Virus record (IMG/VR): IMGVR_UViG_3300033150_000510
Location: 1 to 23,225 of that record
DNA length: 23,225 nucleotides
Reading direction: 5' to 3' (one strand)
Source: a virus
A program made the translations under genes and the position numbers. Positions 1,778 through 22,833 of this stretch are shown one piece after another. The notes under the pieces were generated by a model. The model saw only the letters and a list, made by a program, of their open reading frames with translations. It had not been told where the DNA came from and did not search any database. Each line of letters starts with the position of its first letter. Within the stretch, counting starts at the first letter, position 1.

Positions 1778-2439
1778 TGTGCGGCGATAGTTTAAGACAA
1801 GAACGGTCGTCAAACCCGACGACAGGTGGCGGTTCAAGTCCGACCTCGCCGCTCCAGCTTGTCGTAAAATCTATAACCAAGAACCAAGCTGCTCAGTTCT
1901 ACAAAAAGTGGCATTATCTAGGTGGGCAGGGGTTTTTGGCTTGTCATAACTTCGGGGCATTTTATGAGGACGTGTTGGTAGGTTCCATATCTTTTCACCC
2001 TCCGTCTGCTGTTCAAACCGTGAAGGGTTTGTTTGGAACTACAGACCAACGAGGGTTTTGGGAAATTGGGCGATTGGCTATGACCGACTCCTGTCCTCAA
2101 AACTCGGAAAGCAGATTCATCCGTGTGTCCCTTCGCCTCCTACAACAGATGTTAGAAGTGCGTGCAGTTATCACCTATGCGGACTCTAGTGTGGGACACA
2201 CTGGGGTTGTGTATAAAGCGGCGGGATTCAAGTATTTAGGTCTCACTGCCTCAAAGAAAGACTTTTGGGTGGGGGGTAAGATAAAACAGCGGGGGAGAAC
2301 AAGAGGTGTAAATGGGGAATGGAGACCACGACCGAGGAAGCATCTGTTCGTACTTGTCCTCGATGATACCCTCCCTTTGCTGAAGAAGGAAGTTGAGTGG
2401 AATAATGGAACAAGCAGACGCTCTCAAGGAGCTTTATAA
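1777..2439 (+). CDS. Mom-like DNA-modification acyltransferase (GNAT fold)
   Basis: Residues 28-200 match the Mom family of phage DNA modifiers: KKWHYLGG at 43-50, NFGAFYEDVLVGSISF at 58-73, EIGRLAMTDSCPQNSESR at 96-113, and YADSSVGHTGVVYKAAGFKYLG at 134-155. In phage Mu, Mom converts adenines in DNA to a carbamoylmethyl form and so blocks many restriction enzymes; the same role is inferred here. The start forms a TAATG overlap with the upstream gene. No ATG, GTG or TTG lies in frame between the start and the conserved core, so residues 1-27 (MCGDSLRQERSSNPTT and onward) appear to be a real extension, encoded by a tRNA-shaped sequence. Stop at 2437-2439; the next gene overlaps by 35 bases. 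Confidence 0.75.
   Translation: MCGDSLRQERSSNPTTGGGSSPTSPLQLVVKSITKNQAAQFYKKWHYLGGQGFLACHNFGAFYEDVLVGSISFHPPSAVQTVKGLFGTTDQRGFWEIGRLAMTDSCPQNSESRFIRVSLRLLQQMLEVRAVITYADSSVGHTGVVYKAAGFKYLGLTASKKDFWVGGKIKQRGRTRGVNGEWRPRPRKHLFVLVLDDTLPLLKKEVEWNNGTSRRSQGAL
1781..1856 (+). other. tRNA-shaped 76-nt element, probably degenerate
   Basis: The stretch is exactly 76 nt long and ends in CCA. A perfect 7-bp acceptor stem pairs GCGGCGA (1781-1787) with TCGCCGC (1846-1852), followed by T and CCA. Positions 8-9 are TA, and a 4-bp D-stem pairs GTTT with GAAC. A T-loop, TTCAAGT, sits at 1833-1839 between GG and CC. Against a working tRNA, the D-loop (AAGACAA) lacks the GG pair, the anticodon arm is a 6-bp stem (GTCGTC/GACGAC) with a 6-nt loop AAACCC and no U33, and the T-stem has a mismatch. 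It lies wholly inside the 5' coding region of the Mom-like gene. It could be a decayed tRNA, a tRNA mimic or an RNA control element; no anticodon is assigned. Confidence 0.4.
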
Positions 2440-4636
2440 GCAACTTGCCTTGTGCTCTCGGTGTCCACTGCGAGCTAATGCTACTGCTCCAGTCCCGGGA
2501 AATGGACGGATAGGGGCAAAGTATTTCATCATTGGGGAAGCCCCGGGGAAGAATGAGGATGAAGTGGGGATGCCGTTTGTTGGTCTTTCGGGCAGACGTT
2601 TAGATAGACTGCTATCCCTCGCCAAAATTGACATCAACGATTGCTTCCTGTCAAATGTGTGTCGATGTCGTCCGCTAGCCAACAAAACGCCACGAAAGTC
2701 TGAGAGGATTAGTTGCTATCCGTGGCTTAAAGAGGAACTCAAACTTGTCAAGCCGAAGGTTATTATTACCCTTGGTGCCTTACCACTTTCCCTGTTTACT
2801 AGTGACGGGATTAAGTCCCTCCACGGCACCCAGTTCAAGGCAACTCTAGACCTCGATGGAGAGGTCTATGAAGTAACTGTTATCCCTCAGTACCACCCTG
2901 CGGCTGCCCTTCACCAACCGAGGCTTTGGGCAGTAATGCTTGACGATTGGGAGAATATGTCTGAAGCGGTAGATTCGAGCTACATCGTGGTTAACGAAAT
3001 GAAAAATATTCCAAGCGAGGGTGCACTTGATACTGAAAACAACCCCGATGGCTCGTTGGGCGTGTGGTCAATAACTTTTCGTGATGCATCAGACCAACTT
3101 TGCGTTCAGAGCTTCAATGGAGTACAGGACAAGGTAGTATTCCCTGATACTGTTGTGATGCATAACGCCAAGTGGGACTTGCGGGTGCTCGACGCTAACG
3201 GCATGAAGCGTCCCAAGAATGTAGTGGACACGATGATAGCCGCCTACTGCCTTGGGTTGGGCAGACAAGATATCAAGGATACTGGTCGAGCGGGAGACCA
3301 GATGGTTGGTGGTCTTGGGCTGAAATATCTTGCTCGCCGTCATCTTGGCATGGAAATGAAAAGCTGGCAGCAGGTCAAAGACAGCAGCTTAGAAGAAATT
3401 AAAGAGTATAATGCCGCTGATTCTGTATCTACGTATCTGCTTTGGGAGAAGTGGAAGCCTAAGCTGCCCGACCATTTTTGGCGAATAGATATGCCGATGT
3501 TAGATGTTTGCATGGCGATGGAAGACCGTGGCATCAAGGTTGACCCAGACTTTCTACGGAAATACGCAGAGGCTTTAGACGAGCGGCTGAAGAACATTGA
3601 CCTGCCCCTGAACCCATTTGCCCCACGGCAGATTGCTAATTACGTTTATAACATTCTTGGAATTGAACCGACGAAGTTCACCAAGACTGGACAGCCATCC
3701 ACGGAGAAGGAAATCCTTGAGACTATCAACGACCCCATCGTGAGAAAAATCCTTGAGTATAAAGAAATTCAACACGAACGAAATACTTATGTTAGTTCCT
3801 ATGAGACCAAAATGGACTTGAACCACAGGATTCACTGCGAGTTCAAGCAAACGTCAACGATAACAGGCAGGCTTAGCTCAGCTAAACCAAACCTTCAGAA
3901 TGTTACCAAGGACAAAGAAGACCAGTCCTCGGAACTTCGTAAGCTGTTTATTGCCGAGGATGGATTCTTGCTGGTTCGAGCAGACTTTAGTCAGTTGGAA
4001 CTCCGTGTCTTTGCCGCTCTTACCGACGAAGAAGCCATGCTAAAGGCTCTAGCCAAGGGCAGGAGCATTCATCAGGAAACAGCAGATGCCATTGGGGTAA
4101 ACTACGACGATGCTAAGACGGTCAACTTCTTGATGCTCTACGGAGGCACGGCTTGGGCAATAAGCCAAGAATTCCATATCCCAATTGATAAAGCCAAAGC
4201 GTTGTTAGGCAGCTACTATCGAAACTATCCCGGTATCAAGGCGTATCACCGACGTATTCGAGAACAAGCCGAAACTGAACGGAAGGTGTCAAATCTTTTC
4301 GGGCGGGTTCGGCGGCTTGATGCTATGTTCTCCGACAAGTGGAAAGTTCGTGAGGACGGTATCCGTGAGGCAATTAACACGCCAATACAGGGCACCGCCT
4401 CTGAAATAGTTAAACTAGCGATGATTGACCTGCACTACAATCATTCTGCCCCAATGATTCTTCAGGTTCACGACGAAATTCTGTTTGAAGTTCCTGAGAA
4501 TGAAGCTATGGAATATGCTCACTGGTTGAATGATTACATACCAACGATAACAGAAATCAACGGTGTGCGGTTTCCTGTTGAAGTTGGTGTGGGCAGGACT
4601 TGGGCAGAATCGATGAAGAATAAGTTGAAGGGTTGA
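2405..4636 (+). CDS. Family 4 uracil-DNA glycosylase fused to DNA polymerase A
   Basis: This 743-aa fusion has three parts. Residues 1-180 are a family 4 uracil-DNA glycosylase: GEAPGKNEDEVGMPFVG at 44-60, H164-P165, and cysteines C17, C20, C86/C88 and C104 placed as in [4Fe-4S] members. Residues about 195-350 are a 3'-5' proofreading exonuclease with D209-T-E211, D258 (HNAKWD) and Y335-x3-D339. Residues about 360-743 are the family A polymerase: motif A D527/E532 (ADFSQLELR), motif B K571/F575/Y579, and motif C H689-D690-E691. No 5'-3' exonuclease domain is present. It is probably the replicative polymerase, with the glycosylase removing uracil at or near the fork. ATG 2405 is preferred; TTG 2393 is the alternative, and both have weak ribosome binding sites. 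The position of the motif B arginine holds Y567. Confidence 0.93.
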   Translation: MEQADALKELYKQLALCSRCPLRANATAPVPGNGRIGAKYFIIGEAPGKNEDEVGMPFVGLSGRRLDRLLSLAKIDINDCFLSNVCRCRPLANKTPRKSERISCYPWLKEELKLVKPKVIITLGALPLSLFTSDGIKSLHGTQFKATLDLDGEVYEVTVIPQYHPAAALHQPRLWAVMLDDWENMSEAVDSSYIVVNEMKNIPSEGALDTENNPDGSLGVWSITFRDASDQLCVQSFNGVQDKVVFPDTVVMHNAKWDLRVLDANGMKRPKNVVDTMIAAYCLGLGRQDIKDTGRAGDQMVGGLGLKYLARRHLGMEMKSWQQVKDSSLEEIKEYNAADSVSTYLLWEKWKPKLPDHFWRIDMPMLDVCMAMEDRGIKVDPDFLRKYAEALDERLKNIDLPLNPFAPRQIANYVYNILGIEPTKFTKTGQPSTEKEILETINDPIVRKILEYKEIQHERNTYVSSYETKMDLNHRIHCEFKQTSTITGRLSSAKPNLQNVTKDKEDQSSELRKLFIAEDGFLLVRADFSQLELRVFAALTDEEAMLKALAKGRSIHQETADAIGVNYDDAKTVNFLMLYGGTAWAISQEFHIPIDKAKALLGSYYRNYPGIKAYHRRIREQAETERKVSNLFGRVRRLDAMFSDKWKVREDGIREAINTPIQGTASEIVKLAMIDLHYNHSAPMILQVHDEILFEVPENEAMEYAHWLNDYIPTITEINGVRFPVEVGVGRTWAESMKNKLKG

Positions 4637-13732: not shown

Positions 13733-14668
13733 TTACGCAGTTACCGTGCCATCGGCATCTATGCCATCGACCTTGGCACAGGAACGCAGGTCTTCCAGCT
13801 TCAGACCGCAGTACCACTTGATGCGGAACCTTCGAGCGTCCTTGGATTCAAGGCTGCCTAGGTCTTCAACCTCAACACCTTCACTAGCTTGAACGCCACA
13901 ACAAGCCTTGGGCGCAAACGTCAGGATGAAGATGGTTGTATTGCCGCCGCCAGTTTTTGCGCTGTAAGCACCAGATGAAGCGGTTTCGGTGTTGACGATG
14001 TGGTCAGACGCTACAATTCGCAGACCACGGAACCACTCAATCATCCGACCATAGTTGTCTCTAGTTTCAGTGAATTTGTCGCCGATTGAATCCAAGTAAA
14101 CGTTGATGTACCGCCGCATCGTTTTGGACATAACCAAGTGGGTCGGCTTCCAACCAGTAATGAGGTCGATTGCCTGTTGCAGTTTGGTCATCGACAGGGC
14201 AGTACCAGTTGAAGTACCAGCATGGACGGTGTTGTAGGTGGTGCTGGTCATCAGCTTGTGAAGACCATCAAACTCCTTGGAATTTGACGAGCTATCCCCG
14301 TAGTAAAAGGTGTCTAGGAATTTTTCTCGGACAGCCTTTATCTTGTCGTCAACAATAGTACCCTTCAGGTCAGTTACGTTTGAACGTGTTCTCAACAGGA
14401 AGTTGTCTATGTCAGCATCCCCACCGAGAATCTTCAGGGTAACAGTCGCTTGAGTCAGGGACGGTGTGCTTTCCACCCATGTATCACCTACGCTGTAAAA
14501 CGTCGCACCAGACCGAGTAGTAACGGTATTGTAGGTAAGACTGTTGCCCAGCAGTTCCTCAAAGGGCAAGATTCCCATTATTGGGTCTTCCTTGCCAAGT
14601 CGGTCAATTACGTAACCTCTGAGGGTAGTCGTGGAATATTTATTGCCCTCGGTTAAAGTAAGAGCCAT
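13733..14668 (-). CDS. Major capsid protein, HK97-type fold
   Basis: This 311-aa protein has the pattern of a HK97-type major capsid protein: an N-terminal region with TLTEGNKYSTTTLRGYVIDRLG, a P-domain segment with FLDTFYYGDSSSNSKEFDGL, an A-domain segment with PTHLVMSKTMRRYINVYL, and a late strand run, GLRIVASDHIV. The C-terminus has paired cysteines (KACCGVQ, KWYCGL, LRSCAK). It follows the scaffold gene and precedes decoration proteins, the standard order. AGGAGGAAAA lies just upstream of the ATG, and the gene overlaps the scaffold end by 16 bases. No protease gene is seen, and no maturation cleavage site is recognised. Confidence 0.85.
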   Translation of the reverse strand: MALTLTEGNKYSTTTLRGYVIDRLGKEDPIMGILPFEELLGNSLTYNTVTTRSGATFYSVGDTWVESTPSLTQATVTLKILGGDADIDNFLLRTRSNVTDLKGTIVDDKIKAVREKFLDTFYYGDSSSNSKEFDGLHKLMTSTTYNTVHAGTSTGTALSMTKLQQAIDLITGWKPTHLVMSKTMRRYINVYLDSIGDKFTETRDNYGRMIEWFRGLRIVASDHIVNTETASSGAYSAKTGGGNTTIFILTFAPKACCGVQASEGVEVEDLGSLESKDARRFRIKWYCGLKLEDLRSCAKVDGIDADGTVTA

Positions 14669-15363
14669 TTTTCCTCCTTATTGAATTTTGAAGGTGGCAT
14701 TGACATGATGTCGATGCCTGAATTACCAGCGTCACGTCCAGAATCAACCTTGGTGGCTGGTTTTTGGGCAGCCTTGGTCTTCTCAAGAGCAATGAGCAGA
14801 GCTTTCTCCCGCAACTCAGTTGCCGAGGAACACTTAAGCAGTTCAGATTTTGCCTCTTTGCCGAGTCCGTACTGGTCGATAAGCTCATTGGCAAGGACAA
14901 CCCTTGCAGCCGCTTCCAATCGCTCACGTTCGGCAGCAATCTCTTGTTCCCTCACAGCGAGTTCTCGTGCACGGCGAGCTTGTTCGAGCTTCATGGTGGC
15001 TACCTGCTTGGCAATATCAACGTCGCCGCCAGCTTCTTCAACCTGATGGAGAAAGGACTGTATTTCCTGCCTTTCTCGTTCCTCAATCATTCTCTGGTAC
15101 TCAGATTGTGCTTGCTGAAGGTCTGCCTTGAGCTTCTTGATAGTGCCTTCATATCCACCCTTTACGGACTTAATCCGTTCCTCCAGTTCCATCTTTGGAA
15201 CTAACTCTGGTTCGGGAGCCTCACCTCCACCTTCCCCCAATTCATTTGTTGGCTGGTCGTTGCTTCCTTCCTGCGCCTCTGGTTCTGGGGCGGTCGCCTC
15301 GTTTGCCTGAGGTTGTCCTGCCTCATCACCTTCGGTTGTAGTCTGGAAAAGCTCGTCTGCCAT
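14653..15363 (-). CDS. Capsid scaffold protein
   Basis: This 236-aa protein is very acidic at its start (residues 1-55, rich in Glu, Pro and Gln). Residues about 57-160 form a long charged coiled coil (KMELEERIKSVKGGYEG, QSEYQRMIEERERQE, REQEIAAERERLEAAARV). A helical C-terminus ends in basic and hydrophobic residues. This layout and its place immediately before the major capsid gene mark it as the assembly scaffold, which guides capsid formation and leaves before DNA packaging. AGGAGG eight bases before the ATG gives a strong start. No protease domain is fused to it. Confidence 0.82.
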   Translation of the reverse strand: MADELFQTTTEGDEAGQPQANEATAPEPEAQEGSNDQPTNELGEGGGEAPEPELVPKMELEERIKSVKGGYEGTIKKLKADLQQAQSEYQRMIEERERQEIQSFLHQVEEAGGDVDIAKQVATMKLEQARRARELAVREQEIAAERERLEAAARVVLANELIDQYGLGKEAKSELLKCSSATELREKALLIALEKTKAAQKPATKVDSGRDAGNSGIDIMSMPPSKFNKEEKWLLL

Positions 15364-15376
15364 TAGTTAAACCTCC

Positions 15377-18300
15377 TTATTCCTTAAATGATGGTAGATA
15401 TTCGTCGAATTTATTTACGTCAAATCGCTGTTGGGGCTGTTCTTGCCCACCTTGCATCAGTATATCTTCAGGTGCCCCATCGTAATTGAGTAGAGCAATT
15501 TGAGCTATGTTTATTATTCTCCGCTGAAGGTCTGCGATGATTTGTTCCTTCTGTTGGGGCAGCTTAGTTTTATCAGCGTCAACAGCGTCAATCATCTTCT
15601 CAAGACTGGTTATCTCCCTGTCTGCCGCTCGAAGTCGTCGCAGTGGTTCCGAATAGTAGTTCCCATACCTAGGGTCATAACCCATGCTTAGCTTCGGGTT
15701 CTTGCGGGCAAACTCCTGAGCTTTGCCGTACTCCTTTTCCTCGATGTATTTCCTGAATTTCTCTTGGTCTGATTCTAACTTGGAGATTATTGACCGCACA
15801 TCGTTGGTGACCATCAATGTAGAGTCATAGGTAGTAGTGTTGATTCCAAATGCTTCTGGGAGAGTTCTTATTAAAGCACCAGTCAAGCCATATTCCTCTT
15901 GTGCTTCAATAATTGTCTGCGGGTACATGGACATAAGCCCGTTTACAAGCTGGTCAATAACGTCTTCTTTTTCGTAGGTAATTTCCTCGCCAATTACGCT
16001 AGTCCCGCTAAGTTGGTCAGCCAATATAGCTGGAATTGGGCTTAACTTCATTCTTCCAGCCTGAACAAGATTCCACAACGCATTTATTTCGTAAGTTCGA
16101 CCAGTCTGACGCTTCTTCAACCCCTCACCGGGGTGTACTAAAGCTGGGGAAGTCTGCCAAAGTGCCCTTATGTATGAGCCGAAGCCAGTCAGCATATCGT
16201 ATCGTGTTTTGCCCACCTTAATCTTTCCAAAGTCTGTGGACAATGGATTTGGTTCTATCTCTGCCCCACCAAGATAGGCTAGATACATAATCATCGCTGT
16301 AGTTGAAGCATACGCCGCAAGGTCTCTGGCAGCAATTTTCCTTACTGCTTCAGAACTGCTTGCCAAGCACCAAGGAAGCAAAATCCTCGATGTCTGAAAC
16401 CTAGGCGAGAAGAACAGTACGTTCAAGCCAGCCTTTAGAACCCCAGAAGTAGGTGTCCGTTGGGCAGCATACTCACCTGTAGATAGTGCACCCCTGCCCG
16501 TAGCGTAGTTAATAAATCGAGTCAACTCTCGAAGGTCGTTCTCCGTGAAGTGTTTTCCCGACTGCCTCCAACCAGCTACGATAGTATCGTAAACATTTAC
16601 TCGTAGCGTATTAAGCATTGTGGCGTAACTACGTTCTGACGCTCTTATTGGAAGAAGTTTGGAAAGCCACTTGGACATAAATGCTTCCTCACGCTCAGCC
16701 AACGTGGAAAATACCCCCGGCGACAGGTCGTGAATAAACAGACCATACTCAATTCTTTTCAAGGCTTCGGCATCTATGCCAGCTTCCCCTGTCCTGCCCA
16801 AGTGCATTTCGTTAAGTTTTATTGCATTCTTTTCGCTGGTTAAAGCCTTGAGTTGCATCTTAAAAGCATCTGCGAATTCCTTTGGATGGCTGGGGGCAAG
16901 CACGGCACCTTGACGAAGTGTCGCCGACAAGTCCATTGATGCGAGCAGAGTTCGTGGCGCATTAAGTATATCTATTGTCGTGCTGATTGCTCTGGCACTC
17001 CACGGACGCATTTCAGCAAATGGCTTGGTGAATTCAAGCCCAAAGACACGCTCCAGAAGCCCCAGTTCATACCAAGTAGGTATCTTTCCAGCATAAATCA
17101 AGCCACCTTTCCCCTCTTTGCCCACCAAAGCATCGATTGCGTTTACCTTTTGGTATTCTAGAAGTTTTGTTGAGTCGCTGATGGCTCGTGTCAATTCGTC
17201 AACTTCTTCTTTTGTGAATCCTAGCTTACTTAATGGGATTAGGTCGTAGGCAGGTTCCTCACCAGCAAGGGCAGCTTTAGCTCTAATTCGCTGTTCGGTA
17301 GTAGTTGCCTTGGAAATCAAGGCACGGTATTTAGCTACCTTCTTCTGGTGGGTTGCTCTACGCTGTTCCAGTAGTATATGTTGCATCTCTTTTGTTGGCT
17401 TAGCTTGGCGGATAAGATTGACAGCCTTTTGAACCGTGGGAGACCCACGCCCCTCTAACCCAACACCAACTGGTAGGTCTAACATCTTTCCAGAAAGTTT
17501 GTACACCTCGTCGGCAAACCATTGATGAAGTTTCGGATTCTTATGAAAGGACTTCTTGATTACGTTCTCGTTTACATCTTCGGCAATTTTCCTGCCAAGT
17601 AACTTCGCTATGTCAGTATCTTCGTAAAGGGCAAGATTATACACATTGGTGTGAGATATGATGTCTGAGTTTGTCTTCAAGAAGTTTAGAGTCCGCTGAT
17701 AACTTTCTTTAGTCTCCCAAGGCAGTCCAATAATGACATTCGGAACTACTGGGATGTTGTTCTTCCTAGCTTTATCTAATGCTTGGTCAATGGTTTTTGT
17801 TGTTGACGGCTTCCGAAGCCGCTTTAAAATATCATCGTTGTAGCTTTCCACACCAAGCTCAACGTATCGAATGCCAGACTGCTTCAGAAACTTTGGGTCA
17901 ATCTTCAAAAATTGGGGGGCAGTAGTCTGGACAATAAACCCATCAAACTCTGGATTGTCTGCCTTTAGTCTAGCGTACACCTCGGGCAGGTATTTATAGT
18001 TTGGTGCCTGCCCAAACGTTTTGTCATCTAGATAGACTAGACGAGGTTTAAGTTCTTTTATCGCCTCTACCTGCTGGTCTATGGTTCTCTTGGAAATGGT
18101 TGTAACTCCACGGGTAACATCACACATTACACAGTCGTGGGCACACCCCTTTGACATACAAAGTCGAGGGATTGTGGTCGAACCCTTGAAGTGATGAAAA
18201 GAAACCCCCTGCTTGGGCTTCTCTCCAAGTGCTTTGGCAGCATTCTGGATGCTGGAGTAGAATCGAACGTTGGGCAGGTCTTTGAAGGCTTCCTTCTTTA

Positions 18301-19525
18301 CGTATCCGCCGACGATTATCTTGCCCTTGTACTTTCTAGCCAGTTGCTTGATGAAGTCAACGTTTACGTCCATTGCGCTGAACATTACATTTTTGTATCC
18401 AGCGTTGTTGAGGAACTTTGCTGCCTCGTCAACATTTCTTACAATGTAAACGTCTGACTTTGGAAAGTTCTTAGCTGCGGAACCCATCCAAGTTGGTATT
18501 TCCCAAAAATCGTCCGCTCTGGCGTATCCTGCTCGTGACCTGTAAAGTTTGTCAAAGTATTTTCTAGCTGCTGGTTCTTCCCCCTTTCCGAGAAGTTTCG
18601 AAGAGAACTGAACCAGTAGCGTTCTGTCGGAGTTGTCTGGTTCGGTAGCTGCTTTAACCCAAAGGTTTTTTGATGCAGCCGCAACAGCCTTTGCCGCCTG
18701 CCCATAGGTCGGATACGGTCTCGTAGGTAGGGCAGTTACCTTCGGAGACCCGTACAGGGCTTTTAAGAATGTTTCCTCGTTTAGCTTGCTCTTGCCATAG
18801 TTGGTGGCTTCTTGAAATGCCAGTAACGCCCTAGACTCAGCATCGGTCATCAGCTTGCCAGCCCTAGACTTGGTAAAGGCTGACCGAACTTTGCTAAGCC
18901 CCTGTCTGACCAAGTTGCCCCCAACCTCTTTTCCTGCCCCAACACCTACAAGATACAGTGGCAGATAGGTAGTTTCCTCAGCAAGCCCTCTTACGTCTAA
19001 ACGCCAAGGCTTCTCCCTCACTTCCTCTGGAGTCCACGGGAATCTAAACGGCGGAGTTATATCAACTCCAGGGTACTCAGCCTTTTCGTACGCCCGACGC
19101 ATGGATTTACCAAGTTCTTGCTCGTACTCTTTGTAGAGTTCCTGTAGAAACTCTTTGGGCACCATAGGCTTCTCTGGCGTGACCTTAGCAGAAACACCAA
19201 AATCATATCCTGGAGGGGCGGGTGGAGGTTCCCACTTTCCTGCCCACCAAGGCATAGTTAGTGCCATGCCCATTGGAGTTGAAATTTCCTCGGCAGCTTC
19301 TCCAAAGCCTCTGAGGGCTTTTTGCCACCAAGATGGTTTCTTTGTAGGTTCCCCAGGGTACAACTCCGTCGTTGCAAGTTTGATTAGCTCTGGGTCGTCC
19401 CACGCCTCGTCCCACCAAGGGGCTTGTCCGAGACGCTTCCTCGCTTCGAGGATTTTCTTTTCCAGCCTAATCTTCTCAGGAACAGGCATTATTTCATTAA
19501 TAAATGAATCCTTGTTGTCGGGCAT
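15377..19525 (-). CDS. Large polyvalent-type virion protein (LPD38-like) with embedded radical SAM domain
   Basis: This 1382-aa protein lies among the head genes, two genes after the portal. Residues 1-110 are tryptophan/proline-rich. Residues about 357-440 form a Rossmann-like segment resembling the B12-binding domain that precedes many radical SAM enzymes (YKNVMFSAMDVNVDFIKQLA, GKIIVGGY), but no DxHxxG motif is seen. Residues about 441-690 are a radical SAM core: C461-x3-C465-x2-C468 for the 4Fe-4S cluster, YVELGVES (555-561) and VIIGLPWET (597-605). From about 700 it has the helical core of phage polyvalent proteins, including PTWYELGLLERVFG and an LPD38-like region (about 850-1130, SPRFQTSRILLPW). 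ATG 19525 is chosen: GGAG lies six bases upstream and TAATG couples it to the previous gene; GTG 19537 lacks such a site. Confidence 0.8.
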   Translation of the reverse strand: MPDNKDSFINEIMPVPEKIRLEKKILEARKRLGQAPWWDEAWDDPELIKLATTELYPGEPTKKPSWWQKALRGFGEAAEEISTPMGMALTMPWWAGKWEPPPAPPGYDFGVSAKVTPEKPMVPKEFLQELYKEYEQELGKSMRRAYEKAEYPGVDITPPFRFPWTPEEVREKPWRLDVRGLAEETTYLPLYLVGVGAGKEVGGNLVRQGLSKVRSAFTKSRAGKLMTDAESRALLAFQEATNYGKSKLNEETFLKALYGSPKVTALPTRPYPTYGQAAKAVAAASKNLWVKAATEPDNSDRTLLVQFSSKLLGKGEEPAARKYFDKLYRSRAGYARADDFWEIPTWMGSAAKNFPKSDVYIVRNVDEAAKFLNNAGYKNVMFSAMDVNVDFIKQLARKYKGKIIVGGYVKKEAFKDLPNVRFYSSIQNAAKALGEKPKQGVSFHHFKGSTTIPRLCMSKGCAHDCVMCDVTRGVTTISKRTIDQQVEAIKELKPRLVYLDDKTFGQAPNYKYLPEVYARLKADNPEFDGFIVQTTAPQFLKIDPKFLKQSGIRYVELGVESYNDDILKRLRKPSTTKTIDQALDKARKNNIPVVPNVIIGLPWETKESYQRTLNFLKTNSDIISHTNVYNLALYEDTDIAKLLGRKIAEDVNENVIKKSFHKNPKLHQWFADEVYKLSGKMLDLPVGVGLEGRGSPTVQKAVNLIRQAKPTKEMQHILLEQRRATHQKKVAKYRALISKATTTEQRIRAKAALAGEEPAYDLIPLSKLGFTKEEVDELTRAISDSTKLLEYQKVNAIDALVGKEGKGGLIYAGKIPTWYELGLLERVFGLEFTKPFAEMRPWSARAISTTIDILNAPRTLLASMDLSATLRQGAVLAPSHPKEFADAFKMQLKALTSEKNAIKLNEMHLGRTGEAGIDAEALKRIEYGLFIHDLSPGVFSTLAEREEAFMSKWLSKLLPIRASERSYATMLNTLRVNVYDTIVAGWRQSGKHFTENDLRELTRFINYATGRGALSTGEYAAQRTPTSGVLKAGLNVLFFSPRFQTSRILLPWCLASSSEAVRKIAARDLAAYASTTAMIMYLAYLGGAEIEPNPLSTDFGKIKVGKTRYDMLTGFGSYIRALWQTSPALVHPGEGLKKRQTGRTYEINALWNLVQAGRMKLSPIPAILADQLSGTSVIGEEITYEKEDVIDQLVNGLMSMYPQTIIEAQEEYGLTGALIRTLPEAFGINTTTYDSTLMVTNDVRSIISKLESDQEKFRKYIEEKEYGKAQEFARKNPKLSMGYDPRYGNYYSEPLRRLRAADREITSLEKMIDAVDADKTKLPQQKEQIIADLQRRIINIAQIALLNYDGAPEDILMQGGQEQPQQRFDVNKFDEYLPSFKE

Positions 19526-20826
19526 TATGTTCTCCACATAGCTTTGGGCGCAAATCTAGAAGTATAGAAGCCACGTTGCCACGGAGGAAGTGACAACCAT
19601 TCCTCTCTGGCTGGATATTTTTCGAGATATTCCTCCCAAGGGTCACGACGTTTGGCTTGCCTACTCCAATCTGCAACACCAGCCTCCCAAGACCCGATGC
19701 CTGCCGCTGTTGAACCTAACGCCTCACGTGCTTCCCTAGGCAGCCCTCTGAATTCCTCCGATGCTGGATTCTGGCGGTATCGATAGGCTGTGTTCAGGTA
19801 GCTTTGAAGGGCATCTTCGCCACGACCAACGTATCGTTCAGCAGCAGCAATGTCGGAACTCATTGGGGCATACGGTGTGGGTTGGGCAGCACCCATCGTA
19901 AACGTTTGAAGGGTGTTCCACCACTGTTGGCGTAGCCCCTCGTGCTCACGCTCAAACTTGCCATAGATGTCAGACAGCCTTCTCTGGAAATACTGACGTT
20001 GGGCAGGAGACACAATAGCCTCAACGAACGAGGAATATGCTTCCTCTGGTTCGGGCATTGGTTCCCGCCTAGCTTGTCTGGCGGCTTCAAGCTCTGCTTG
20101 TTCCCTTGCCTCGGCTGCTCGAAGTCTCTCTTGGTCTTCCAAGGCACTAAGGAAGCCACGCTCTGCTTTCTCTCTGGCGTATTCTTTCTGTCGTTGCAAG
20201 TCTGCCCAACGACCAAGTTCTAGAGTCTGCCAGTCTACAAGCTCACGACGCTTGGCTATATCAGCTTGCTCTTTTACCCATGCGGGCAGGGTTTCCTCGG
20301 CGTACTGTTTGTATTCTTCTCTGTATTTCTGCCAATCTTTGGTAAGTTTGTTGACGTAGTTAGTCCAGTCTTTCTGCCGAGTCTTTACCTTGTACAGTTC
20401 GTAGTCCCGTGTCTGTTCATCTGGTGACGTAAAGACCTCGTAGAACGGCAGTTGGCTTACAGGCACGCCACGGGTAATCCAGTTTTTAACGTTGTCTCGA
20501 ATCGCCTCGGCGGTGTCCGATGAAACCCCTGCGTCCATTACCAGACGAACCAACCAATCTCGCAAGGTAGACAGGTATTCTTCGTACGTAGTGATTGGCA
20601 TCCCATACGAAGGTGGCATCGTAAAGCCAGCCGTTGGCTGCCCACCTCTACGTAAAACGTTCTCGTACCAAAAGCGGTAAATCGGATGGTTCTGGTCAAC
20701 GCCTGAGAAGAACGGAGTCATCAGGTATGACGACCCCATTTCCTGCTTCAGCCTAATAGCAGTACCGTATCCGTAGGTGTCTTCAACCCATTTCCAAAAA
20801 TCTTTAGTTGTTGCACCGTCAGGCAT
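19525..20826 (-). CDS. Coiled-coil structural protein, unknown family
   Basis: This 433-aa protein is mainly helical. Residues about 160-270 are a long charged coiled coil (KDWQKYREEYKQYAEETLP, LQRQKEYAREKAERG, RLRAAEAREQAELEAARQ). The flanking ends are rich in aromatic residues (DFWKWVEDTYGYG at the start, PPWQRGFYTSRF at the end). I do not recognise a family. It lies between the portal and the polyvalent-type protein, with TAATG overlaps on both sides, so all three are probably made together. A role as an internal virion or ejection-associated protein is plausible from position only. Confidence 0.6.
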   Translation of the reverse strand: MPDGATTKDFWKWVEDTYGYGTAIRLKQEMGSSYLMTPFFSGVDQNHPIYRFWYENVLRRGGQPTAGFTMPPSYGMPITTYEEYLSTLRDWLVRLVMDAGVSSDTAEAIRDNVKNWITRGVPVSQLPFYEVFTSPDEQTRDYELYKVKTRQKDWTNYVNKLTKDWQKYREEYKQYAEETLPAWVKEQADIAKRRELVDWQTLELGRWADLQRQKEYAREKAERGFLSALEDQERLRAAEAREQAELEAARQARREPMPEPEEAYSSFVEAIVSPAQRQYFQRRLSDIYGKFEREHEGLRQQWWNTLQTFTMGAAQPTPYAPMSSDIAAAERYVGRGEDALQSYLNTAYRYRQNPASEEFRGLPREAREALGSTAAGIGSWEAGVADWSRQAKRRDPWEEYLEKYPAREEWLSLPPWQRGFYTSRFAPKAMWRT

Positions 20827-22586
20827 TAAACGCCTCCACTACTACCGAGTGCACCACCAGGGGCACCGCCCATTGACTCTGGGGGCAGAACCTCTGGGGG
20901 CATTCCTTCCATACTTTCTGGTGGCATACCCATTCCACTGTTCTCAGCAGTGAACTGTTCCAGCGCACCCATCGACTGTGACTGGGGTCTTCTTGGCTGT
21001 GCTACCTGACCCTGCCCAAGCAGCCGCCGAAGCTCAGTAAGCAGGTTCCTAGCCAAGTCTGTCCTTCCGTCATCCAAGGCGGCAAGGAATGCTTTGTACA
21101 GCCTGTTGATGAGCAGGTTGTCTGCCCACTCTCTAGCGACCCTGTCGCTCTCAAGGTCTGGGTCTTCCACCCCAAGGATTTGGTCTCTAATTGTCTGGTC
21201 GGACAGCAGAGGTATTTCACCCTCTCGTGCCGCCTTAGCCAGCAGGTATCTTTGGGCATCGTCCTTGGGCAGTATCGCCTCAAGGCGGACTTCGGGGTGC
21301 CAGTCGCCAGCAATATCTGATGGTCGAATCAGCATCGGTTTGGGCAGACCAAAAACCTCGTTTCGGCTAGTTCTGCCACGAACCTTTATCGGCTCAAACC
21401 CACCAGCAGAATATTGTTTGGGCAGTTCAATAGAAGCAATTCTGTAGGCATTTTCAACCGCCTCTAAGTATGGGGCTACAACCGTGCTTATCGATGTCTG
21501 AAGTGTGTTTATTGCAAACCCAGACAGTCTGAAGTTGAGTTCCCCAAACACAGTGTATGGAAAGCCAGCACGCTGTTCGTCACCAGTCATAAACTTGAGC
21601 AGTTGGCTCATGTCCTGTGGCATGGCTGGTGTTATTATCGGTTTGATTGTCTCATTTGTAGTGGAATCCAGTGGGATTACTCCCGCCTTTTCCACCTGAT
21701 AGATGTCTTGTTCCAGCATCTTTTCCCCGCCAGCAGACCAGTAGCCTAGGGGCGGTTTTACTCCACGCCGAACTATTGTCAACAGGTCTGACGTTGTTTT
21801 GTTTATGGCGGGAACAATATTCCGCAGCCCGTGGAAAATTGATTCCCCACGATGGATTTCGGTAAACTCGTAGGATTGATGATGCGTTGACGGCATTTCT
21901 CCAGCAATAACAAGATACACTGGGCAGTAATCCAATCCGTGCTTCTCTGGTTTCTTGCCCCACTGGTTGCCAACGACCACTGCGTTTACTTCCTCGTCCC
22001 AGTAGTCATAAACGTCGGTTTCCTTGGCGACCGTTATGTCGTACAAATCTTTGATTTCTTCTTTTGTGGCTTTGCGAACCCTGCACGCCCACTTTAATCC
22101 GTTTCTGCCCATCCCATAGGCAACATTGTATGCATCCCAAGCATTCACCAGTGGTACGGTTTCGCCCCGCTCGTTTTTGTGGACGTAAACAAGAACGAAG
22201 AACCTGCCCCGAAGACAAGCAAGCCAAGCCATCTGGTTCTTCAAAGTTGGCATCCCCATTAGCGTCATCCGCTCATCGTTCAGCGTAAATGAGCCATAAA
22301 GAAACCTCTCGATATTGGAACTAATGCGACGCTCTTCCTCGGTTTCAAGGTCAATTGGGATTCTCACTATCAGCTTGGACTGTGAAACAATGGAGATTGC
22401 TTTATCGGCGAAAACTCTTGGATAGTTGTGCGTATAGCTATAGTAGCCACTCCCAGGGTCATATTCCTTCAGCCGATACAGGTCAAAATCACGATTCCAA
22501 CGTTCCCGCAGTCTAACAGCAGTCATGTTAGACCAAAACTTTTTAGATGCACTAACTATCTGAGACGGTTGTGTGAATACTGCCAC
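20826..22586 (-). CDS. Portal protein
   Basis: This protein of about 586 aa matches phage portal proteins in overall pattern: an N-terminal region with NMTAVRLRERWNRDFDLYRL, a wing-like section (LVNAWDAYNVAYGMGRNGLKWACRVR), and a stem and crown region (GDEQRAGFPYTVFGELNFRLSG, then SISTVVAPYLEAVENAYRIAS). The last 40 residues are rich in Met, Pro and Gly. It forms the dodecameric ring through which DNA enters and leaves. Position between terminase and scaffold fits. The start is uncertain: GTG 22586 has AGGAG eleven bases upstream, while GTG 22652 would overlap the previous gene by about 100 bases. The stop overlaps the next start as TAATG. Confidence 0.8.
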   Translation of the reverse strand: MAVFTQPSQIVSASKKFWSNMTAVRLRERWNRDFDLYRLKEYDPGSGYYSYTHNYPRVFADKAISIVSQSKLIVRIPIDLETEEERRISSNIERFLYGSFTLNDERMTLMGMPTLKNQMAWLACLRGRFFVLVYVHKNERGETVPLVNAWDAYNVAYGMGRNGLKWACRVRKATKEEIKDLYDITVAKETDVYDYWDEEVNAVVVGNQWGKKPEKHGLDYCPVYLVIAGEMPSTHHQSYEFTEIHRGESIFHGLRNIVPAINKTTSDLLTIVRRGVKPPLGYWSAGGEKMLEQDIYQVEKAGVIPLDSTTNETIKPIITPAMPQDMSQLLKFMTGDEQRAGFPYTVFGELNFRLSGFAINTLQTSISTVVAPYLEAVENAYRIASIELPKQYSAGGFEPIKVRGRTSRNEVFGLPKPMLIRPSDIAGDWHPEVRLEAILPKDDAQRYLLAKAAREGEIPLLSDQTIRDQILGVEDPDLESDRVAREWADNLLINRLYKAFLAALDDGRTDLARNLLTELRRLLGQGQVAQPRRPQSQSMGALEQFTAENSGMGMPPESMEGMPPEVLPPESMGGAPGGALGSSGGV

Positions 22587-22833
22587 TTTGTTCTTCACTC
22601 CTAACTTCGTCTGCTGACACCTTTTCTGGGCTTGGCATACCCATTCGAGCACGCTTTTCCTGTGCCTTCAGTTTGTTTCTCATTCTGATATGCAAATCGC
22701 TGACTACTATAACGTCTTCAGGCTTGCAAACTATTGCGAGTTGGTGCCCATCGGCAGTTAGCTCAAACGGTATCAGGTCTCTAATCTCCTTTATGCTGAG
22801 CCTGCAAAAATCAGACTTGGACATAGTTTTCAA
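22552..22833 (-). CDS. Hypothetical 93-aa protein between terminase and portal
   Basis: I do not recognise this protein. It starts with KTMSKSDFCRLSIKEIRDLI, has a short strand-rich middle (HQLAIVCKPEDVIVVSDLH), then a basic helix (RMRNKLKAQEKRARMG) and a polar tail. The start is TTG 22833: AGGAGG at 22841-22846 lies seven bases upstream, while the next ATG is 16 bases away, so TTG is the better choice. The terminase stop overlaps this ribosome binding site. Its 3' end overlaps the portal start. Small proteins here sometimes help packaging, but nothing in the sequence shows it. Confidence 0.6.
   Translation of the reverse strand: MKTMSKSDFCRLSIKEIRDLIPFELTADGHQLAIVCKPEDVIVVSDLHIRMRNKLKAQEKRARMGMPSPEKVSADEVRSEEQSGSIHTTVSDS

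Follow-up and report, generated by a model that had tools for sequence, protein, structure and literature searches.

The locus considered here raises the question of why a radical S-adenosylmethionine (SAM) enzyme domain should lie within a large protein encoded among the virion genes of a phage, and what it might do there. The window, meaning the whole stretch of 23,225 nucleotides that was analysed (positions 1 to 23,225 of IMG/VR record IMGVR_UViG_3300033150_000510), encodes this protein on its minus strand, and an earlier note had suggested from the letters alone that a radical SAM domain is embedded in it. The best explanation of the data, to which a probability of about 0.4 is assigned as a whole, is that the protein carries a complete radical SAM module, independent of cobalamin, that is delivered with the virion and acts early in infection, perhaps on a nucleic-acid base and together with a partner of the DUF7178 family. 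The parts of this statement differ in strength. The presence of a radical SAM module in a polyvalent-type protein is close to certain, and the module is predicted with good confidence to be an active enzyme; its delivery is probable by analogy, and its target is tentative. The features of the protein on which the argument turns are as follows.

15377..19537, minus strand: polyvalent-type phage protein, an uninterrupted frame of 1386 residues from a GTG start
18638..19537, minus strand: N-terminal region, residues 1-300, for which the relatives gave no homologue
17411..18637, minus strand: radical SAM module, residues 301-709 (profile match of 625-626 bits over 399 model positions)
18461..18637, minus strand: family-specific N-terminal part of the module, residues 301-359 (VQFSxKL ... 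FWEIPTW), with conserved residues
18203..18460, minus strand: shortened B12-binding-like Rossmann segment, residues ~360-445 (SAMDxN, GGY), lacking DxHxxG
17678..18157, minus strand: radical SAM core PF04055, residues 461-620 (Pfam E 8.4e-19; Foldseek, VIA-align)
18122..18145, minus strand: CxxxCxxC, residues 465-472 (CAHDCVMC), predicted [4Fe-4S] ligands, the cysteines being invariant in the family
15818..17434, minus strand: C-terminal core, residues 702-1240, an unnamed polyvalent-associated domain common to 57 viral loci and phage ctf1B273

Residue numbers follow the 1386-residue (GTG) numbering unless stated otherwise. An alternative ATG start at 19525, four codons after the GTG, gives the 1382 residues of the earlier note.

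The radical SAM module and its predicted fold

Pfam places Radical_SAM (PF04055) on residues 461-620 at 68.8 bits, where 29.5 is the cut-off, and finds nothing else convincing in the window protein. The CxxxCxxC motif previously put at 461-468 corresponds to C465-C469-C472, the GxES motif lies inside ELGVES (E560-S565), and the VIIGLPWET motif is part of NVIIGLPWET, which begins at N600. The insert had been drawn at about residues 350-700 (17456-18460). Its borders are indeed modular, but the homologous unit is wider, from ~301 to ~709, its start being set near residue 301 because a standalone bacterial match aligned from there.

The nearest curated family gives little guidance to function, as the best NCBIfam match, PhpK-type TIGR04479 (E 2e-15), reaches 56 bits against a cut-off of 600, and the many other radical SAM families matched all fall far under their own cut-offs. 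Radical SAM enzyme sequences in the PDB likewise match the window protein weakly. The Rossmann segment had been read as B12-binding-like but without the DxHxxG cobalamin-ligand motif, and this reading extends to the whole family, in which DxHxxG precedes the cluster motif in 0 of 53 distinct members; a half-length Pfam B12-binding match (E 0.0016) was seen in one module relative. With the motif missing and no family cut-off passed, the module falls outside class B (cobalamin-dependent) enzymes, and a B12-dependent methyltransferase is set aside. Membership of the MiaB/RimO methylthiotransferases was also considered and rejected, as neither UPF0004 nor TRAM appeared in Pfam at E up to 1 and the RimO model scored 35 bits against 357.

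Structure prediction, the check that the earlier note had proposed, gave a radical SAM fold, although the model was built from only three sequences and has a mean predicted local distance difference test score (pLDDT) of 54, with much of the barrel at 60-88. The first Foldseek matches are radical SAM enzymes with E down to 1e-13, and the 50 rows that VIA-align listed consist entirely of radical SAM enzymes (Z 10.0-12.9 over about 180-280 residues). As the fold is common to every radical SAM enzyme, rank among these matches names no substrate. In identity and fold, the window protein is by computation a radical SAM protein.

The gene is also intact and selected. A second contig, IMGVR 3300033153_004579 (39 kb), is largely collinear with the window record at 94-97% DNA identity and encodes an intact homologue (locus L002, 6984-11144) with 98% protein identity. 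Between the two, the whole gene shows 123 synonymous against 23 replacement changes, a ratio of replacement to synonymous rates (NG86 dN/dS) of 0.055, and the radical SAM part shows 0.048, a sign of strong constraint, both values coming from one genome pair only. The gene is under purifying selection.

A recurrent family in uncultivated viruses

A whole-genome search with the radical SAM part returned one strong match (E 1e-48), a standalone gene in a bacterial genome of 1.0 Mb, and adding this copy to the query opened the family from 3, then 9, then 58 viral loci. The embedded module of the earlier note is therefore real but not isolated. The resulting census rests on metagenomic contigs and on pattern-based scans that miss members, and comprises 59 frames, with 38 fused in proteins of 562-4599 residues, 19 standalone (one of them bacterial) and 2 cut by contig ends. 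Members score at least 243 bits, the lowest being a truncated frame, and the other radical SAM proteins seen at most 72 bits against the same profile. CxxxCxxC is found in 59/59 frames, and 25 residues are invariant across the 53 distinct modules, including C465, C469, C472, E560, G562, E564, N567, K576-P577, N600 and G604. In the family-specific part E346, P348 and W350 are invariant and Q310 is kept in 52/53, while in the Rossmann segment GGY (410-412) is invariant and S387 conserved. These features mark a previously unnamed family of ~400 residues that recurs in uncultivated viruses.

When the module is disregarded, the 34 distinct fusions sort into 27 groups, or scaffolds, at 40% shared length, a number that depends on the threshold, and what remains of the window protein has no detectable similarity to the other fusions. 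Several of these hosts are true polyvalent proteins, since they carry LPD38 (five module carriers, E 1e-32 to 1e-44), ART-PolyVal (eight carriers, six above cut-off), LPD23 or RadC in Pfam. On the family tree the fused members group together, as do the standalone ones; about two state changes are needed, against about 15 when labels are shuffled. Within the module of L134 (residues 1772-2301), an insertion of ~130 residues in the radical SAM domain reads by eye like ADP-ribosyltransferase-PolyVal.

Named phages appear to lie outside this distribution, as tblastn with the window, L095, L097, L123 and L145 copies found no member among 50,697 records. The gut-phage tblastn matches (H2-H6) were set aside as lying outside the module family: they are unannotated scaffolds whose radical SAM similarity is generic and scores low. 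The one cellular copy found is chromosomal in genome G525, in a setting that by eye is not prophage-like, and is followed there (L085 / L153, C1:455957-457084) by an MTA/SAH nucleosidase-like gene with a 4-base overlap. In searches run without a positive control, 249 genomes from the phylum to which genome G027 belongs and 345 from that of G030 gave no module at 1e-40. By eye, some standalone viral copies adjoin ligase, exonuclease, helicase and dUTPase-like genes.

The C-terminal core and its variable cargo

The protein that holds the module had been described as an otherwise ordinary phage protein with an insert. Its C-terminal core suggests a different description. The core is homologous to UOF78006 of phage ctf1B273 (25% identity) and occurs in 57 IMG/VR loci, of which the other 56 all lack CxxxCxxC. 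Several of these relatives carry other N-terminal cargo, with ART-PolyVal, LPD22, LPD23, SLT, helicase, methylase, His_Phos_1 and KptA-like domains present in one or two proteins apiece. Because different enzymes stand on the N-terminal side of the core in its relatives, the family of the window protein is one that carries variable cargo as a rule. This combination of a module with an unrelated core, among relatives bearing ART, SLT, helicase and phosphatase domains, upholds the view of a polyvalent-type host protein. The window protein itself has no named LPD or ART domain in Pfam, as are present in other module carriers, and it is therefore called polyvalent-type by its architecture and kin.

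The LPD38-like label previously given to the core has no support from sequence, as LPD38 (PF18857) was not matched at E up to 10 in the window core or in any of 29 core members, and hhalign of the core against LPD38-bearing ends gave a probability of 0.4%. The earlier note had suggested comparing LPD38 proteins with and without the insert; LPD38 does occur in the five module carriers, and the 56 core relatives do lack the radical SAM motif, but by sequence the window core is not LPD38. The core model (pLDDT 82) matches proteins annotated as "Large polyvalent protein associated domain" in BFVD by Foldseek at about E 1e-5 to 1e-3, with the LPD type unstated, and VIA-align found no PDB match with Z 5 or more.

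Some core relatives and module carriers have neighbours of interest in their own right. L017:10450-12704 (IMGVR 3300020171_000469) has two radical SAM genes, free-standing and of other families (356 and 400 residues), between a core-type polyvalent gene and scaffold/capsid-like genes, with a TPP-enzyme gene and a glycosyltransferase gene recognised by eye in the vicinity. His_Phos_1 lies inside two core-family polyvalent proteins (L026 and L031, Pfam), and a histidine-phosphatase-like gene, judged by eye, directly precedes the gene with the fused module in L106, L112 and L141.

Genomic context

In the window, the polyvalent-type gene is flanked by virion genes identified from Pfam, PHROG and NCBIfam.

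20826..22652, minus strand: portal protein (SPP1_portal PF05133, E 7.6e-6)
19525..20826, minus strand: 433-residue protein between the portal and polyvalent genes
14653..15363, minus strand: scaffold-like protein of 236 residues, from position and composition, with a weak PHROG scaffold match (E 0.69)
13733..14668, minus strand: major capsid protein, gp7/epsilon15-like (PHROG 212 E 2.4e-56; NCBIfam NF045672 2.9e-46; PF20911 1.2e-12)

The gene had been placed between portal and scaffold. The scaffold-like gene does adjoin it, but the 433-residue gene, which has no Pfam or PHROG match above a curated cut-off, separates it from the portal gene. Residues 1-300 of the polyvalent-type protein have no homologue among relatives. 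For the giant fusion proteins elsewhere, virion context was judged by eye and from shared neighbours; PHROGs run on those neighbours gave nothing for 9 of 10, and the candidate capsid protein of L106 had no match in a PDB search. Elsewhere in the window (2393-4636, plus strand), a single frame of 747 residues encodes a uracil-DNA glycosylase (residues 9-191; PDB 4zbx, E 2e-31) fused to a DNA polymerase I (residues 255-739; E 6e-64).

DUF7178, a candidate partner

DUF7178 is the only neighbour family of the standalone copies that also matches the giant fusions. It is encoded within 3.3 kb of 7 of 18 distinct standalone module genes, directly adjacent in some, and lies inside 11 of 34 distinct fusions (8 of 27 groups), whereas one of the 54 core-family polyvalent proteins that lack the module contains it (Fisher p 5e-4, counted by group). 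Module and DUF7178 are thus associated in two ways, side by side and within one protein. The DUF7178 profile matches OGG-type N-glycosylase/DNA lyases (HhH DNA-glycosylase-like) at E 1e-3, and a Lys and an Asp 20 residues apart are both invariant in it; these may be the catalytic pair of a glycosylase. In the sibling phage, on contig 3300033153_004579, the DUF7178 gene lies about 5 kb from that for the terminase, beyond the part covered by the window, and adjoins a ~90-residue protein that also recurs beside the module.

This unnamed ~90-residue family was seen near DUF7178 or the standalone module at L103:1008-1280, L101:1205-1537, L144:7565-7867, L145:11450-11749, L133:6821-7102 and L139:2490-2798. 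Two DUF7178 phages also encode a short radical SAM protein of 176-183 residues (L066:1204-1752 and L098:11552-12079), MoaA/HxsC-like in L098.

A model of action and its alternatives

Taken together, these observations allow a model to be proposed. C465, C469 and C472 would hold a [4Fe-4S] cluster, at which SAM would be cleaved to a 5'-deoxyadenosyl radical, and the substrate site may be formed partly by the shortened Rossmann segment and the FWEIPTW region. The C-terminal core would place the protein with the virion and carry its cargo into the cell, so that the protein, packaged in the head, would enter with the DNA, its cluster being kept or regained. Such delivery is probable by analogy with the polyvalent proteins described by Iyer et al. 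(2017; PMC5512222). Early in infection the module could then modify a DNA or RNA base, and a DUF7178 partner, in the same phage or the same protein, might excise or exchange that base in the same pathway, the outcome being protection of the incoming DNA or damage to host or rival DNA. A nucleic-acid base as the target is suggested, with rather less than even confidence, by the association with DUF7178 and by the weak similarity of that family to glycosylases, which are its whole basis. The fullest form of the model, in which the radical SAM module and glycosylase-like DUF7178 are delivered with the genome as a base-editing pair that rewrites bases at entry, is speculative and on balance doubtful.

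Several observations weigh against this model. An oxygen-sensitive cluster would have to survive ejection or be rebuilt in the new cell, and the standalone members show that the enzyme can also be made as a normal gene product inside the cell. The predicted structure of the radical SAM part is of low confidence (mean pLDDT 54). DUF7178 itself has weak PDB matches, is found in the sibling phage and not in the window, and has relatives in 36 named phage records (Roseobacter phage SIO1, cyanophages) from which the module is absent; further, the control set for its enrichment consists of other scaffolds and of shorter proteins (median 1154 against 2710 residues). Virion presence, cluster, SAM cleavage and substrate are all inferred.

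An alternate scenario would have the enzyme act late, in the producing cell, modifying the capsid, the portal, another virion protein or new phage DNA during assembly. The position of the window gene between portal and capsid genes fits such a role, as do the two free-standing radical SAM genes beside scaffold/capsid genes in L017, which shares the core. However, some standalone copies lie by eye near ligase, exonuclease, helicase and dUTPase-like genes and not near head genes, and ART-PolyVal and other early-effector domains occur in the same proteins as the module, so that late action seems improbable. Equally, the substrate could be a nucleotide or small metabolite, such as a modified nucleotide of the viperin kind or the precursor of a modified base, in place of polymeric nucleic acid or protein. 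Viperin and MoaA structures do appear among the VIA-align matches, and the cellular standalone copy is followed by the overlapping nucleosidase-like gene; however, the rank of a fold common to all radical SAM enzymes is uninformative, and the candidate partner resembles DNA glycosylases. A small-molecule substrate is likewise considered improbable.

Domain relics exist in phage proteins, and a module embedded in a large virion-cluster protein might be a non-catalytic remnant used for structure or binding. The cluster cysteines, however, are invariant in 53 members with CxxxCxxC in 59/59 frames, the SAM-site motif is kept, and dN/dS stays at 0.048, which makes a relic very unlikely. Finally, as one metagenomic record underlies the window, an assembly chimera or frame error could have fused a phage gene with a radical SAM gene of cellular origin, an outcome that the earlier note had named as a refutation. 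It can be discounted almost completely, because an intact copy with 98% identity is present on a separate contig, with 123 synonymous against 23 replacement changes, and because the module is fused in 38 loci. Early action of a delivered radical SAM module is the preferred reading.

If the protein is in the particle, the range of injected activities, which includes methylases, ADP-ribosyltransferases and RNA polymerases, would be widened to radical chemistry, and a true base-editing pair would be a new kind of such chemistry delivered by virions. The association with DUF7178 gives a concrete guess about the target. The family recurs in uncultivated viruses of many samples and was found in none of the 50,697 named records, and so has been invisible to laboratory work.

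Comparison with known systems

No description of radical SAM domains in polyvalent proteins was found in the full-text literature, a search mostly without subscription papers and without preprints, in which absence is not proof, and the words "radical" and "glycosylase" are both absent from the main text of Iyer et al. (2017; PMC5512222). In phages, radical SAM genes have been described from Ralstonia jumbo phages (PMC5468394) and from the Thermus phages Cumys and phiMa (PMC11437467). These are separate genes and not domains of polyvalent proteins, and no named phage record gave a module member, although their sequences were not compared one by one. By sequence, the nearest curated families are class B radical SAM enzymes (PhpK-type TIGR04479, HpnJ, MgmA, TsrM), with which the module shares structural matches and the order of a Rossmann segment followed by a radical SAM core; it differs from them in its shortened Rossmann segment, in the lack of DxHxxG (0/53) and in its score of 56 bits against 600. 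The radical SAM diol-dehydratase AprD4 (PDB 6fd2) is among the best structure and profile matches, but identity is about 17% and no sugar-antibiotic context surrounds the module. AprD4 has a B12-type architecture that works without cobalamin. The closest parallel for the protein as a whole is offered by phage polyvalent proteins, such as P1 DarB and the LPD38 / ART-PolyVal proteins, DarB being a head-borne enzyme that acts in cis to modify and protect incoming DNA (Iyer et al., 2017; PMC5512222). Unlike those described, the window protein has a core of its own that matches no Pfam LPD; like them, it is large and multidomain, is encoded among virion genes and carries enzymatic domains that are exchangeable.

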